Positions 9,401 to 64,000 of a DNA stretch of 64,000 bases are shown here, piece by piece. The notes beneath the pieces were generated by a model. The model was not told the DNA's origin, ran no database searches, and was given only the letters and a program-made list of their open reading frames with translations. The position numbers were made by a program, and so were the translations under genes. Each line of letters begins with the position of its first letter. Positions within the stretch are counted from its first letter, which is position 1. Source of the DNA: Chryseobacterium gleum (GTDB lineage: Bacteria; Bacteroidota; Bacteroidia; Flavobacteriales_F; PHOS-HE28); contig CAMCAZ010000005.1 in the NCBI GenBank assembly GCA_945872795.1, forward strand, positions 22,999 to 86,998, given 5' to 3'.

Positions 9401-10349
9401 CAATGGTCGGGTACTTCCGCTGGTCTACGACAAGGAATCGGACCAAAGCACGCTCGCCAACGATGGTGGTGGCCCCTTCAACTTCAAGATCCGGAAGAAC
9501 ATCATCTACCGCGGCAAGGCGACCGTTACCAACGGCCAGTTCGATTTCACCTTCGTGGTGCCCAAGGACATCAACTACCAGGTGGGGCCGGGCAGGGTCA
9601 GCTGTTATGCAGAAAGTTGGTCAACGAACGCCAGCGGCTACACTAACTCGCCCTTGATCGGGTCCACGGCCACGGATATCGTGGAGGATAGCCAAGGTCC
9701 CCAGATCGAACTGTTCATGAACGATGAACGTTTCGTGCGGGGCGGTATGACCAACGAAACACCGCTGTTGTACGCGAAGCTGTTCGACGAGAACGGGGTC
9801 AACACGGTGGGCAGCAGCATCGGTCACGACCTGCTTGCCGTACTGGATGAGAACACCGAACAGGCCGTGGTGCTGAACGACCTTTATGAAGCGGACCTGG
9901 ATACGTACAAGAGCGGAGCCGTGCGCTATCGGTTCGACAACCTCGCCGAGGGCCCGCACTCCCTACGCCTGAAGGCCTGGGATGCCCATAACAACTCCTC
10001 GGACGCGACCACGGACTTCGTGGTGGCCTCCTCGGCCGAGCTGGCCTTGGACCACGTGCTGAACTATCCCAACCCGTTCACCACCCGCACATCCTTTTTC
10101 TTTGAGCACAACCGGCCCTGTACCACCCTGAATGTGCAGGTGCAGGTGTTCACGGTCAGCGGACGCTTGATCAAGACCCTGAGCCGGCAGCTGGCCTGCG
10201 AGGGTTTCCGCAGCGAACCGCTCGAGTGGGACGGCCGTGATGATGTGGGGGACACCATCGGACGCGGGGTCTATGTGTACCGCCTGAGCGTGGTGACCCC
10301 GGAGGGTGAGCGTGCCGAGAAGTTCGAGAAACTGGTGGTCCTGCGTTAA
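6414..10349 (+). CDS. porU: Type IX secretion system sortase PorU (C25/gingipain-like)
   Basis: 1311 aa; LLLFGDGSYNN, NYVGHGGEVGWAHERF (His) and FMTATCEFSRWDDP (Cys) catalytic-region motifs; C-terminal YPNPF...GRGVYVYRL; adjacent to porV. Confidence 0.93.
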   Translation: MTATRPALAILLLFSTLPSMAQERAQRLLNWGESANPAKVATEGRNVQPVEGLVRATTSPLVLAFDGAFFDEDRGGLPYYNEQTEMPTGVTGISAYVRDAVYVPLTAAERAAWPAVEQAGPEPEVHARVTFYRKRPQGLVSVYPYRRDPVTGSLDKLLSFRIELVEGRSEARGGGQRSYPENSKLASGDWFRFTIAKDGVYKVTYETLRDMGADISSLSSDRINVYGNHFGLLPFVNNVERPTDLLLNAIQMVDGGDGVFGPGDHLLFYGTGAHRWEVQNDRFVHTRNVYSDSASYFIGIDVDPPSRIADAELSSDDATLTVTSFSDRHFINRELVNLLKSGRNWLGETFDLTTTYNYNFETPFLNPGSDATLVVNVAGRTYGLGNTSSFTITSSGSLNTSLTVPGISQNNTSPVASAAQGVYTFSPTGNNVPVTLSFIKFDPITSVGWLNYLELNCRRQLRMTGDQVAFRDLASVGAGQVAEMVMDQAQPVYRIWEVTNPTAARSVPFTTDGSTKRFRVRTDELREFIAFRDANYLTPTVIGRVPNQNLHASATPTDLVIVVPPMFQAAASRLAERRASEGMTVLMVSPQQVFNEFSSGARDATAIKRYMRMLYDRAGMDDALMPRHLLLFGDGSYNNLSLIPTNQNFIPSYQTADGISPSNSYTSDDYFGLLDETDGESTGDLVDIGVGRLPVSSSQQAQEVVTKILAYDRLQLLSSSDDNCSAIGGGGIADWRNHVLFASDDQEGDSFEGVIHMEQSNQLAMRVETEHPHLNVDKIYMDAYQQVTTPGGERYLQANEELRDKVQKGSLVVNYVGHGGEVGWAHERFLDNGTITNWSNLDRLPLFMTATCEFSRWDDPGRTSAGELVLLNPSGGGIGLMTTTRLAYSNQNFDLARRFYDHVFTEEDALGRPWQLGDIYRETKRSITAAQPSQRNHRNFSLLGDPSMRLALPRERIVITSITDTLGVPMDTLKALSTARISGFVDDGTGQPMADFNGRVLPLVYDKESDQSTLANDGGGPFNFKIRKNIIYRGKATVTNGQFDFTFVVPKDINYQVGPGRVSCYAESWSTNASGYTNSPLIGSTATDIVEDSQGPQIELFMNDERFVRGGMTNETPLLYAKLFDENGVNTVGSSIGHDLLAVLDENTEQAVVLNDLYEADLDTYKSGAVRYRFDNLAEGPHSLRLKAWDAHNNSSDATTDFVVASSAELALDHVLNYPNPFTTRTSFFFEHNRPCTTLNVQVQVFTVSGRLIKTLSRQLACEGFRSEPLEWDGRDDVGDTIGRGVYVYRLSVVTPEGERAEKFEKLVVLR

Positions 10350-10380
10350 GCCCTGCACAATAAGCACCCCTGTTCCGGCG

Positions 10381-10388
10381 TATATTTG
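10381..10388 (+). promoter_or_regulatory. Candidate -7 box (TAnnTTTG) for porV
   Basis: TATATTTG, 26 nt upstream of ATG 10415. Confidence 0.45.
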
Positions 10389-10414
10389 ACGTCCTGTTCC
10401 CGACCCCTGCCCTG

Positions 10415-11722
10415 ATGCGTTCCATCCGTCGTCCCGTTATTGTCGCAGCGATCGTTCTGTCGATCGCTGCACCCCTGGTCGTCATGGCCCAGCCTTGCGA
10501 TCCGCAGTTCCAATCGGCCGGACAGCAATGTGGCGACCAGCTGAACACCATCACGACGGCCGTGCCATTCCTGATGATCTCCGTGGACTCCCGTGCGGGC
10601 GGCATGGGTGATGCGGGTGTCGCGGTCTCTCCGGATGCCAATTCCATCCACTGGAACCCCGCCAAACTGGCCTTCGCCGAGCAGGACGGTGAGTTCAGTA
10701 TGAGCTACAGCCCCTGGCTCAGGAACCTGGTGCCCGACATGAGCCTGGCCTACCTCTCCGGGTACAAGCGTTTGGGCAACAAACGCAGCTCCATCGGTGG
10801 TTCCCTGCGCTACTTCAACCTGGGCAGCATTCTGTTCACCGACCAGAACGGTTCCACCATCCGCGATTTCAAACCGGCCGAGTTCGCCGTGGACCTCGCT
10901 TTCGCGCAGCGGTTCGGTGAGAACTTCTCGGGGGGGGTCGCCATCCGATACGTCAACAGCAACCTCACCGGTGGGATCAGTGTGCAGGGGGCCAACTCCA
11001 AGGCGGGGCAGAGCGTTGCCGCCGACGTATCCTTCTACTACCAAAAGAAAGATCTGAAGTGGGGCAAGAAGGACGGGACCTTTGCCTTGGGCCTGAACAT
11101 TTCGAACGTCGGTGCGAAGATGTCCTACACGGAGACCTCCGCCCAGGACTTCATCCCCATCAATCTGCGGCTTGGACCTGCGTTCACGCTGGACATGGAC
11201 GAGTTCAACAGCCTGACCTTCGCCTTCGATGTGAACAAGTTGCTGGTTCCCACGCCGCCGGTCTATCTGCTGGATGAGAACGGCGCGGTGGTGATCGATC
11301 CGGTCACCGACCGGCCTGCGGTGGCCAGTGGCCGAGACCCGAACGTGGGTGTAGCTTCCGGTATGATCGGGTCCTTCAGCGATGCTCCGGGAAATGTGAG
11401 CTATGATGACAATGGCAATTTAGTCGTGGAATCCGGCAGCATTCTCCGCGAGGAGATGCGCGAGATCAATCTGGGTGGCGGCTTGGAGTATTGGTACGCC
11501 AAGCAGTTCGCTTTCCGTGCCGGCTATTTCTGGGAGCATTACACCAAGGGTAACCGCAAGTACTTCACCCTGGGTGCAGGTCTTCGCTACAACATCTTCT
11601 CGCTTGACCTGAGCTACCTGATCGCCAATACCCAGCGCAGCCCCTTGGCGAACACGCTCCGCTTCACATTGGGCTTCCGCTTTGATGGCAAGGGCGCCAA
11701 GAAGACGCCTGCGGAAGGATGA
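10415..11722 (+). CDS. porV: Type IX secretion system outer membrane channel protein PorV (LptO)
   Basis: VPFLMISVDSRAGGMGDAGVAVSPDANSIHWNPAKLAF is the PorV N-terminal signature. Confidence 0.95.
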   Translation: MRSIRRPVIVAAIVLSIAAPLVVMAQPCDPQFQSAGQQCGDQLNTITTAVPFLMISVDSRAGGMGDAGVAVSPDANSIHWNPAKLAFAEQDGEFSMSYSPWLRNLVPDMSLAYLSGYKRLGNKRSSIGGSLRYFNLGSILFTDQNGSTIRDFKPAEFAVDLAFAQRFGENFSGGVAIRYVNSNLTGGISVQGANSKAGQSVAADVSFYYQKKDLKWGKKDGTFALGLNISNVGAKMSYTETSAQDFIPINLRLGPAFTLDMDEFNSLTFAFDVNKLLVPTPPVYLLDENGAVVIDPVTDRPAVASGRDPNVGVASGMIGSFSDAPGNVSYDDNGNLVVESGSILREEMREINLGGGLEYWYAKQFAFRAGYFWEHYTKGNRKYFTLGAGLRYNIFSLDLSYLIANTQRSPLANTLRFTLGFRFDGKGAKKTPAEG

Positions 11723-58390: not shown

Positions 58391-58575
58391 ACACCGGCTG
58401 CGACCCCTCCGGGGTCGTATTTCTGGCGTTGATGCCAGAGCTAGATGCTGTGACCCCTCCGGGGTCATCCAACCGGAGACGCATTGTCCCGACCCCGGAG
58501 GGGTCACAGCATGTAGCCCGAAGGGCGTTGAACGGCGCGTTGGATCTTCGACCCCGGAGGGGTCGCAGCCGGTGT
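58391..58575. repeat. Nested palindromic repeat cluster (four copies of GACCCCTCCGGGGTC in two inverted pairs)
   Basis: Cores at 58401-58417, 58451-58467, 58490-58506, 58549-58565; outer pair is a 27-bp perfect IR (58391-58417/58549-58575), inner pair about 22 bp. Confidence 0.9.
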
Positions 58576-58829
58576 ATTGCATGCCACTGGGAATGGATGC
58601 CCATTCTACCACGACCTTGTTCTTCGCTATACTGCAGCCACAATTCATGTCGGTGTCGCAGTTTTCCCGGGACACCACTGATCGGAAGATCGGATCACGG
58701 GACGATCGATGGCCTCAACAATGGTTCACCATCAAGACCATCCTCCGACCCTATCTATCGTTTTCACCATTCCACCCGCGAACGGCATTTCCATTTTCTG
58801 ATCGTCTGACCTTCTGATCCCCTCCCCCC

Positions 58830-60622: not shown

Positions 60623-61720
60623 ATGGCCGAGGACCCGACGATGCTGCACACCGTGGATGCCGGGGGACACCCCGTGGTGCTGGGCCCCCAGGCCCTGGCC
60701 CAGCTGCAACGCCAGCTGCTACAGCTGGAGCGACCCGCCGTGCACATCCTGGGCGACGAGAACACCCTGCGCCACTGCCTGCCGGAACTGCTGGCCCATG
60801 TGCCCGCCCTGCGCAAGGCCACCACGCTCTCCGTGCCCGCCGGCGAGGGTAGCAAGGGCCTGCCCGTGTGCCAGGCCGTGTGGCAGCACTTGGCGGACCA
60901 TGCCGCCGACCGCCGCACGCTGCTGCTCTGCCTGGGCGGCGGCGTGGTCAGCGACCTCGGCGGCTTCGTGGCCTCCACCTACAAGCGCGGCATCCGCTGC
61001 ATCCACGTGCCCACCACCCTGCTCGCCATGGTCGATGCGGCCATCGGCGGCAAGACCGGCGTGGACCTCGGCGGGGTCAAGAACATCGTGGGCACCTTCC
61101 ATGATCCGCTCTGCGTGTACCTCCACGTGCCCTTCCTGCGCAGCCTGGGCAAGCGCGAACTGCTCAACGGCCTGGCGGAGATGATCAAGCACGGCCTGGT
61201 GCACGATGCCGCCCACTGGGAGGCCATCGCCGATGCGCCCCTGCACGATATCGATGCCCTCGCACCCCTCATCGCGGAGAGCGCCGCCATCAAGGCCGCC
61301 ATCGTGGCGCAGGACCCGCGCGAGGCCGGGCCCCGCAAGCTCCTCAACTTCGGCCACACCATCGGCCACGGCATCGAGGCCTTCTCCTGGGAAAGCCCCC
61401 AGCGCGCCCTGCTCCACGGCGAGGCCGTCGCCATCGGCATGCTCTGCGCCGCCTACATCAGCTGGCGCAGCGGCCTGCTGCCCCGTGAAGCCAATGACCG
61501 CATCGCCGCCCAGCTCCGCGCCCTCTACCGCCCCTTCGAGCTGGCACAGACCGACGCCCACCGCATCGTCCAGCTCATGCGCAACGACAAGAAGAACGTC
61601 GGCGACGAGTTCCGCTTCACCCTCCTCACCGCCATCGGCCAGGGCCGCGTGGATGTCCCCGTCAGCGCCGCCCAGGTGCAGGAAGCGGTGGAGTATTATA
61701 GGTTGTTGGTGAGAGAATAG
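60623..61720 (+). CDS. aroB: 3-dehydroquinate synthase
   Basis: True start MAEDPTMLHTV at 60623; LCLGGGVVSDLGGFVASTYKRGIRCIHVPTTLLAMVDAAIGGKTGVDLGGVKNIVGTFHDP; LNFGHTIGHGIEA; MRNDKKNVGDEFRFTLL. Confidence 0.96.
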   Translation: MAEDPTMLHTVDAGGHPVVLGPQALAQLQRQLLQLERPAVHILGDENTLRHCLPELLAHVPALRKATTLSVPAGEGSKGLPVCQAVWQHLADHAADRRTLLLCLGGGVVSDLGGFVASTYKRGIRCIHVPTTLLAMVDAAIGGKTGVDLGGVKNIVGTFHDPLCVYLHVPFLRSLGKRELLNGLAEMIKHGLVHDAAHWEAIADAPLHDIDALAPLIAESAAIKAAIVAQDPREAGPRKLLNFGHTIGHGIEAFSWESPQRALLHGEAVAIGMLCAAYISWRSGLLPREANDRIAAQLRALYRPFELAQTDAHRIVQLMRNDKKNVGDEFRFTLLTAIGQGRVDVPVSAAQVQEAVEYYRLLVRE

Positions 61721-61725
61721 GTGAT

Positions 61726-61798
61726 GGCATCCCGCTGGGGCGGGACAGGTCGTGCCCATATGCTCATGTGGGCATCCCGCTGGGCGGGACAGGTCGTG
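61726..61798. repeat. Two direct copies of a hairpin-containing 28/29-nt repeat after aroB
   Basis: ggcatcccgctggggcgggacaggtcgtg (61726-61754) and ggcatcccgctgggcgggacaggtcgtg (61771-61798); each holds TCCCGC..GCGGGA. Confidence 0.85.
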
Positions 61799-61971
61799 GA
61801 CATGGAATGCGCGCTACTGGGTAGGTGGGTACGCTTTATGAGGGTTCATGCGAAGGGTAGGCTCCTCGTGGAGAGATGCTGCCCAGGCTCGGTACGTCGT
61901 GTTTTGGCGCAGCGATGCATCAAGATTCGCATACCTGTACCATCAGGTCCGGCCTGAACCGACAAACACGG

Positions 61972-62847
61972 ATGACAATGAAAGGGACTTGGATCCTATG
62001 CGGGATGGTCATGATGAGCGGTTGCAGTGACTCCAAGCTACGGAACGAGGCCACGATGGCGTCCACGGAGTTCTTTTCCGCCATCAAGAACGGCGACACG
62101 GAGCGTGCTGGGAACTTGTACGCAGGATTCGGGGAATTGCCTTCGTACTTCAAGAGCGATTCTATCAGCGTTCGTGAGGTAATTGTCATGGATACACTGG
62201 TGGTCAGCAAGGTCAGGAACTTCTTTACCAACCTGGCTGGCAAGAAGTCGGTACGGGACATCGACCTGTACTTCGTCCGGGAGAAGGACAACCCATTGGT
62301 GCTGGTGGATTCAAAGGGCATGTCAGACTTCAAGGAGAATGAGGACCACCAGTTCGCGGTCTCCACGGGATGCATCGATACCCGATCGGATACGCTTGAC
62401 CAGCGCATGTGTGAGCGGCTCAAGTTGGCGAACGACCTGATGGTCGCCAAGGCGGTGGACCTGTGGAAGGAGCTCAGGCTTGGCTGTGTGGTGGACAACT
62501 GGAGTTGGGAATCCGGCTATGCAGGTTCGGCGAACGGCAAGGGCATTGTGGTGAACAACACCACGTACCGGATACCGCGTGTTAAGTACAAGATCACCTA
62601 CAAGGACCGTGCGGGCAGCATGATCACCACGGATGATGGGTACGTGACCTACGACGCGCTGGTGCCATTGGGCAGCAGGTCCTTCACATTCTACACCAGC
62701 TATGTGGGCAATGCGCATACAGCAAGCATCGAGCTGGTGTTCGATGACGAACTGCTGATGGACTGCGTGAAGATGGCGAAATGGACCGGCAGCGAATGCG
62801 CGGAGTTCCTGGCAGCAAAGGATGCAGGGCAAGCAGAAACGGAGTAG
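61972..62847 (+). CDS. Hypothetical lipoprotein
   Basis: Lipoprotein signal MTMKGTWILCGMVMMSGCSDSK; no family recognised; start could also be 61978. Confidence 0.7.
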   Translation: MTMKGTWILCGMVMMSGCSDSKLRNEATMASTEFFSAIKNGDTERAGNLYAGFGELPSYFKSDSISVREVIVMDTLVVSKVRNFFTNLAGKKSVRDIDLYFVREKDNPLVLVDSKGMSDFKENEDHQFAVSTGCIDTRSDTLDQRMCERLKLANDLMVAKAVDLWKELRLGCVVDNWSWESGYAGSANGKGIVVNNTTYRIPRVKYKITYKDRAGSMITTDDGYVTYDALVPLGSRSFTFYTSYVGNAHTASIELVFDDELLMDCVKMAKWTGSECAEFLAAKDAGQAETE

Positions 62848-62957: not shown

Positions 62958-63182
62958 TCACTCCTTCGCCACCACCGTATCATACAGCCCGTAATGCGTC
63001 AGCCCCTCATGGCTCTCAATCCCTGTGTAGCGTAAGGACGCATCCTCGTATCGGCGGAACGCGAACACGTTGAAGAACTCCACCCAGAAGGGCTTGGCGT
63101 CCGCCTCCTCATTGTGTGCATCGGCCTATTGCTTGGCAAAGCGCGTGGCGCGGGTGCGGATCTCTCGGCGGGATAGTGGCAT
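62958..63182 (-). pseudogene. Decayed N-terminus of an MmeI/type IIG-like class I DNA methyltransferase
   Basis: Minus strand: MPLSRREIRTRATRFAKQ*ADAHNEEADAKPFWVEFFNVFAFRRYEDASLRYTGIESHEGLTHYGLYDTVVAKE*; in-frame TAG at codon 19; only about the first 42 codons resemble the methyltransferase N-terminus. Confidence 0.6.
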
Positions 63183-63262: not shown

Positions 63263-64000
63263 ATGCGTAAAGTAGCCTATCTCCTTGGTGCCGGTGCCAG
63301 CGCTCAGCGACTCCCGGTGATTGCTTCCATGTCGGCAGTGATCTTGGAGCAGGTCGAGTGGTTAAAGAATGAAGTGCGCACCATGGCCTTAGGTCCGGCG
63401 GGTTCCATTGCGGAACTGAACGGTAAGCTTGATAAGTATCTCGGTGCCTTGGACGACCTCGCCGTTGAATCGGTCAAATACGTGTCCGTGGACACCTATG
63501 CTCGGTGGCTCAGTAACGATCGGAAGCTCAGCGAGATCAAGGCAGCGCTCTCCACCTTCTTCGCCATTGAGCAATTCCGGAAAGGATATGACCCACGCTA
63601 CGAATCATTCGTGAGCACCCTGCTGGACCATGACGAGAAGGCGATCAACAAGGATGCCGTAATTCTTACTTGGAACTACGACCAGCATCTGGCGCAGGTG
63701 CTGAAACGAGCGACCGGTTCATCCTCTGTCAGGGATGTGATGCGCCAGCATTCCATCACCACCCTGCATCGGTTGCAGAAAATGAACATCACGGATTATC
63801 ACGTCTTACACTTGAATGGGATAGCGGGTATGTACGGTAGAGGTACGGACCACCCCATTCTTGACCGCTATGAGCCCGGTTCACTGACTGCCTCCAACCT
63901 GAATGTATGGTTGAGTCAGTTTGAGCTCTTGAGCCAGGAACGTTATACCTCCAGCGATTCGCCGACCAACTTGATGTGTTATACCTGGGAGGCGCCCGAT
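63263..64000 (+). CDS. SIR2-like domain protein (5' part; truncated by window edge)
   Basis: Reading from ATG 63263: MRKVAYLLGAGASAQRLPVIASMSAVILEQ...AVILTWNYDQHLAQVLKRA...DYHVLHLNGIAGMYGRG...; N-terminal GAGAS and downstream TWNYD fit SIR2-like (SIR2_2) proteins. Open for 246 codons to the window end; absent from the ORF track. Confidence 0.72.
   Translation, partial: MRKVAYLLGAGASAQRLPVIASMSAVILEQVEWLKNEVRTMALGPAGSIAELNGKLDKYLGALDDLAVESVKYVSVDTYARWLSNDRKLSEIKAALSTFFAIEQFRKGYDPRYESFVSTLLDHDEKAINKDAVILTWNYDQHLAQVLKRATGSSSVRDVMRQHSITTLHRLQKMNITDYHVLHLNGIAGMYGRGTDHPILDRYEPGSLTASNLNVWLSQFELLSQERYTSSDSPTNLMCYTWEAPD

Follow-up and report, generated by a model that had tools for sequence, protein, structure and literature searches.

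A truncated stand-alone SIR2-like gene with Asn-Gly at the place of the catalytic His-Gly, a probable one-gene abortive-infection effector in accessory DNA next to aroB

The window (the whole stretch of DNA analysed here, 64,000 nucleotides) ends in accessory DNA which follows aroB and which carries the beginning of a SIR2-like gene. The features at this end of the window, including the conserved motifs of the SIR2-like gene, are:

60677..61720, + strand: aroB, the core gene that borders the accessory stretch; 43 of 45 genomes of the genus have it, and aroA comes next in 25 of 29 relatives
61978..62847, + strand: accessory gene of 289 aa with a lipoprotein-like start, present in 2 of 45 genomes of the genus
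63048..63182, − strand: remnant of an MmeI-like type IIG restriction-methylase gene, recognised by homology (first 45 codons, with TAG at codon 19 and the rest missing)
63263..64000, + strand: SIR2-like gene, interrupted where the contig stops, with its initial 246 codons out of about 340 present (from the ORF listing, relatives and family profile)
63287..63301, + strand: GAGAS motif, residues 9-13, the sirtuin NAD-binding loop, with no more than two of the 104 family members deviating at any position
63674..63682, + strand: N138-Y139-D140 of WNYD, counterpart of the sirtuin NxD, in 104 of 104 members and aligned with TTNYD of HG-type SIR2_2 proteins
63815..63820, + strand: N185-G186, occupying the position of the catalytic His-Gly of sirtuins, with Asn in all 104 members (hhalign places KLNG on KLHG)

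After aroB the order is the 289-aa gene, the methylase remnant on the other strand, 80 bp and then the SIR2-like gene. The latter was found as a 246-codon ORF with an ATG start and an open 3′ end when frames running off the source were allowed in the ORF listing; the default listing omits such frames, which explains why the gene was missing from the ORF track, as a preliminary description of this DNA had remarked. Its translation begins MRKVAYLLGAGAS and later contains ILTWNYDQHL. Because the frame is open for just 4 more codons upstream of the ATG (250 in total), the start appears to be well placed. At the other end, contig C5 stops at base 86998. The window ends on this same base, and the gene is thus truncated by an assembly break as well as by the window edge (the assembly comprises 3.3 Mb in 102 contigs). 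The nearest relative is a 343-aa protein from the genus genome G065 (43% identity, E = 3.4e-59), which matches through to the window end. This match, together with that of the family profile (1.8e-101, the window ORF itself being one row of the profile), confirmed that the open frame is not due to chance. Residues 2-249 of the relative span the fragment, so that about 95 residues are missing from the window copy; judging from the relatives, these would complete the SIR2 fold and a second domain is not expected. The missing gene end was not found on other contigs of the same genome, and neither the end of contig C5 nor that of contig C41, which holds aroA, carries it.

The SIR2-like ORF has a G+C content of 53.7%, compared with 62.8 ± 2.7% for equal-sized stretches in the rest of the window, all 255 of which were higher, and a GC3 of 0.66, compared with 0.91-0.92 for the core genes of the window, in agreement with the lower G+C noticed originally. 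With relatives in 5 of the 45 genus genomes (genus profile search) and this outlier composition, it does not look like a conserved core housekeeping gene. The 289-aa accessory gene gave no match in the Pfam scan and has one relative in the genus (genome G013, 48% identity). The methylase remnant, with its one TAG, is 80% identical over residues 1-45 to a 919-aa protein from a genus relative (E = 7.3e-17), and this 919-aa protein carries the Pfam MmeI domains. The G+C content and the patchiness thus uphold the earlier picture of low-G+C accessory DNA, here with a defence-type (restriction-methylase) remnant alongside the gene, and we consider, from the sequence, that the SIR2-like gene lies in accessory DNA and is of horizontal character. 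Next to the remnant, at 62960-63047 (− strand), its frame continues for about 29 codons (YEDASLRYTGIESHEGLTHYGLYDTVVAKE, then a stop) which are unlike the methylase and are possibly the end of another decayed gene. GC-rich intergenic words are also repeated in this part of the window: GGCATCCCGCTGGG.CGGGACAGGTCGTG-like words near 61730-61800 (61720-61800) and words of the CCCCGGAGGGGTC type in 58400-58700, scattered between genes.

Among the genus relatives examined, aroA follows aroB with a gap of −1 to 380 bp in 25 of 29. Here, contig C41 carries aroA, within which it ends, together with the gene that follows, for formate-tetrahydrofolate ligase; at least 2.28 kb of accessory DNA separate aroB from the end of contig C5. 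The simplest explanation of the accessory DNA is that it was inserted between aroB and aroA; a rearrangement is also conceivable, because 4 of the 29 relatives likewise lack aroA at this site.

PDB sequence searches with the single protein, a 4-row profile and a 63-row profile gave no meaningful match, and a fold comparison was therefore needed. We modelled a full-length relative (L048) with AlphaFold2, using an alignment with 63 family members, which gave a pLDDT of 90.2 and a pTM of 0.90. The whole modelled chain is accounted for by one Rossmann-type SIR2 fold, and its best fold matches in the PDB were the SIR2 chains of SIR2-HerA (E = 9.9e-6), followed by CobB, ThsA and Sir2Tm. The preliminary description had called the protein SIR2-like and had proposed profile and structural comparisons with SIR2 domains. 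The structural comparison, run on the family model, returned SIR2 proteins as the best matches and supports this identification. In the profile comparison the window protein by itself lies under the Pfam SIR2_2 cut-off (13.5 bits against 24.5, E = 0.079). Modelled by itself, without the family alignment, the window protein reached a pLDDT of 39, which is unusable. For these two reasons the SIR2 nature of the window protein is assigned through its family, with weak agreement from sequence models: PADLOC SIR2 models match 31 of the 63 members (best 7e-11) and Pfam SIR2_2 matches 13. The GAGxS and NxD motifs of SIR2-like proteins are both present. Weak Pfam matches of the window protein to MIOX, sulfotransferase and others were dismissed as chance.

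To describe the family we pooled 104 distinct members from the genus and class profile searches, a GTDB genome scan, viral contigs and phage records. The class search found relatives in 14 of 389 genomes (about 3.6%), and the GTDB scan gave 126 related stretches, of which 80 were kept; 11 came from viral contigs and the phage records contained three Leptospira phages with a family member. Complete members are mostly 320-400 aa long, typically about 345 aa, and nearly all fall between 317 and 426 aa. In the GTDB scan they belonged mainly to Bacteroidota, with some from Deltaproteobacteria, Ignavibacteria, Balneola, Brevinematales and Leptospiraceae. No match was found in plasmid collections, nothing significant in a viral fold library and nothing relevant in the NCBIfam scan. 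Pfam, NCBIfam and PADLOC hold no dedicated model for the family, which suggests that defence annotation tools probably overlook it. We conclude that these single-domain SIR2-like proteins form a family which is widespread in Bacteroidota and inherited patchily.

Residues D77, R112, W137-N138-Y139-D140, N185 and G186 (window numbering) are identical in all 104 members. It should be noted that WNYD belonged to the search pattern of the GTDB scan, so that its constancy is partly due to selection; D77, R112 and N185-G186 were outside this pattern. In a profile alignment of the family with nine SIR2_2 proteins of the HG type, taken from genomes belonging to the same class (hhalign probability 96.6%, E = 5.7e-10), NYD fell on NYD and KLNG on KLHG. 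The canonical catalytic His is therefore Asn throughout the family, a replacement which the preliminary description had missed; of the GAGAS/NYD NAD-depleting effector which it proposed, the motifs stand, while the His that serves catalysis in known SIR2 NADases is absent. The window copy keeps every highly conserved family residue in the part covered, except for H142 in place of the usual Gln.

The same replacement occurs in PaAvs5-1, where NG takes the place of HG at the SIR2 active site, changing this Asn to Ala or Gln abolishes defence, changing it to His keeps defence in part, and infected cells lose NAD+; the NG variant is found in about half of Avs5 proteins (PMC12931631). Since NG works in PaAvs5-1, Asn in place of His would by analogy be no proof of inactivity, though the loss of the catalytic His could also mean that NAD+ hydrolysis has been lost.

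We also compared the neighbourhoods of the relatives. In two genus relatives an MmeI-type IIG gene, intact or gapped, lies directly upstream of the SIR2-like gene with gaps of 2-6 bp. As about one in four genomes of the genus has an MmeI-like methylase gene, its occurrence beside the SIR2-like gene in three of the five carriers (with the remnant described here included) would seem unlikely to be due to chance. Around ten further loci have type IIG-like or type I methylase genes directly before or close to the SIR2-like gene, and in several loci methylase genes abut it with gaps of 0-24 bp; AbiH, TIR and DUF262 genes were recognised by eye near other members. Restriction-modification genes were found within 3 kb in 7 of 71 loci and at 5.5-8.5 kb in 2 of 58, an excess of around 2-fold per coding length which, given the small counts, we do not take as significant. 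In the near neighbour sets 363 PADLOC models were hit and in the far sets 90 (these are counts of models, not of loci), and the Pfam scan of the same sets pointed in the same direction. Many members adjoin ordinary genes.

Across 95 related loci, in which two pairs each represent one contig counted twice, no recurrent partner was found and no neighbour family occurred in more than 7. This is consistent with the stand-alone gene first proposed and with a family that, on its sequence neighbourhoods, has no obligate partner. Of the earlier suggestion that a partner gene or a C-terminal domain lay beyond position 64000, the domain found no support: full-length relatives are about 345 aa long, with one SIR2 fold making up the whole modelled chain. 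As for a partner gene, none recurs in these loci. Six flavobacterial loci (L074, L076, L081, L093, L100 and L120) share a fixed order of SDR, SIR2-like and AlbA_2/Schlafen-like genes with gaps of 4-45 bp. We rejected the upstream SDR and the downstream AlbA-like gene as partners, judging the order to be the shared synteny of one lineage; it might also represent a two-gene variant.

Members carried by phages have a different setting. On the viral contig L197 the gene (9995-10999) stands alone in the opposite orientation, flanked by genes for major head, head-morphogenesis, portal and terminase proteins, in the manner of phage cargo genes, and in L204 (9992-10993) it is likewise lone opposite-strand cargo between (pro)phage structural genes. 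A member annotated as hypothetical was also found in genomes of the Leptospira phage LE1 type (L006:5998-7032), with genes for RND transporter and DNA polymerase B nearby.

The absence of a constant partner, the SIR2 NADase residues, the exchange between chromosomes and phages and the company of restriction genes are best read together as marking a one-gene abortive-infection effector. We therefore regard the window fragment as the N-terminal 70% of a stand-alone, horizontally acquired NG-type SIR2-like protein of about 345 aa which most likely acts in this way, a reading to which we give a probability of about 0.6. Sequence comparison and the structural model give firm ground for the fold, the family, the motif replacement, the horizontal and accessory character and the lack of a constant partner; cleavage of NAD+ by the NG family would follow by analogy, and neighbourhood and phage carriage point to an anti-phage role for the family. 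A phage cue would switch on NAD+ cleavage by the SIR2-like protein, releasing nicotinamide and forming ADP-ribose; the WNYD asparagine (N138) would place the attacking water, the NG asparagine (N185) would do the work of the usual histidine, and the infected cell would stop before phage is made. More tentatively, and at somewhat less than even odds, the members could form a large unmodelled clade which unites phage sensing and NAD+ destruction in one SIR2 domain of some 345 aa, in which the Asn is obligatory, and which travels between chromosomes, restriction loci and phages.

Other explanations are less probable. The protein could be a catalytically altered SIR2 which binds NAD+ or ADP-ribose derivatives without bulk NAD+ hydrolysis, acting as a sensor or transferring ADP-ribose to a target. 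The catalytic His is indeed missing from every member, and the invariance of D77 and R112, both outside the search pattern, makes another chemistry possible; we think this unlikely, as both GAGAS and NxD are preserved and Avs5 with this NG can still deplete NAD+ (PMC12931631). We give a similarly low probability to a multi-gene system in which the protein is the effector subunit and the partner is encoded past the end of the contig; this partner could be a HerA-like ATPase, for example, or a restriction enzyme whose breaching sets off the effector. In structure the family model comes nearest to the SIR2 of SIR2-HerA, and methylase genes abut several members, but the neighbour counts given above speak against a fixed partner and in phage contigs the gene is found singly among structural genes.

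The gene might instead be dead, a remnant of a decayed island like the adjoining methylase gene, which is down to 45 codons with a stop, and its own 3′ end lies beyond the contig. This is rather improbable, given 246 codons without a stop or frameshift and the retention of the conserved family residues apart from H142. Least probable by far is a role outside defence, as an NAD-dependent deacylase or a metabolic sirtuin: the structural matches do include CobB and Sir2Tm, but these match less well than SIR2-HerA, the His needed for deacylation in canonical sirtuins is absent, and patchy distribution, phage carriage and outlier composition are unlike those of a housekeeping enzyme.

Among the main weapons of abortive infection in bacteria are the SIR2 NADases, and proteins related to them take part in the immunity of animals. 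Before the NG form of Avs5 was reported in 2026 (PMC12931631), the SIR2 histidine had been regarded as essential. A stand-alone clade with NG only makes the use of Asn for His in NAD+ cleavage directly testable on a small single-domain protein, and it also poses the question of whether a bare SIR2 domain can sense phage by itself.

Compared with known systems, the family has its best fold match in the SIR2 subunit of SIR2-HerA (GAO_19), which is likewise a SIR2 domain without a large extra domain. The SIR2 partner of HerA has HG, whereas the family has NG and no recurrent partner gene, and the sequence similarity of the two is weak (about 14-15% identity in the structural alignment); no HerA partner was seen when the neighbours were compared for recurrence across the 95 loci. 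In S. thermophilus, SIR2-HerA likewise lies close to restriction-modification loci (PMC11514479). With Avs5 (SIR2-STAND) the family has GAGxS, NxD and the NG variant in common (PMC12931631), but at about 345 aa its members have, by length, no STAND NTPase or sensor domain in the chain, and NG is found in all of them rather than in about half. The SIR2 fold is shared with Thoeris ThsA (6lhx), which has HG and a C-terminal SLOG domain for which a single SIR2 unit of about 345 aa leaves no counterpart. DSR1 and DSR2 are also single-gene SIR2 systems, but they have long C-terminal sensor regions where the family consists of the SIR2 unit alone (317-426 aa in nearly all). The PADLOC Aga_SIR2 models of SIR2-APAZ/short pAgo systems weakly match 8 of the 63 members, which have no room for APAZ and no recurrent neighbour such as an Argonaute. 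The vertebrate FAM118 sirtuins are also SIR2-like; they are relatives of bacterial anti-phage sirtuins and process NAD (PMC12700824), but FAM118 keeps the active-site His (H206 in FAM118B). Domain lengths and the lack of a recurring partner therefore do not favour membership in Thoeris, DSR, SIR2-HerA or SIR2-pAgo as such, as the preliminary description had considered, and the best reading is that the family is distinct from these systems and from Avs5. In the part of the literature covered by open-access papers we found no description of a stand-alone, NG-only SIR2 family, and what we report is best called a new family of this kind whose action would probably resemble that of the SIR2 NADases already known.
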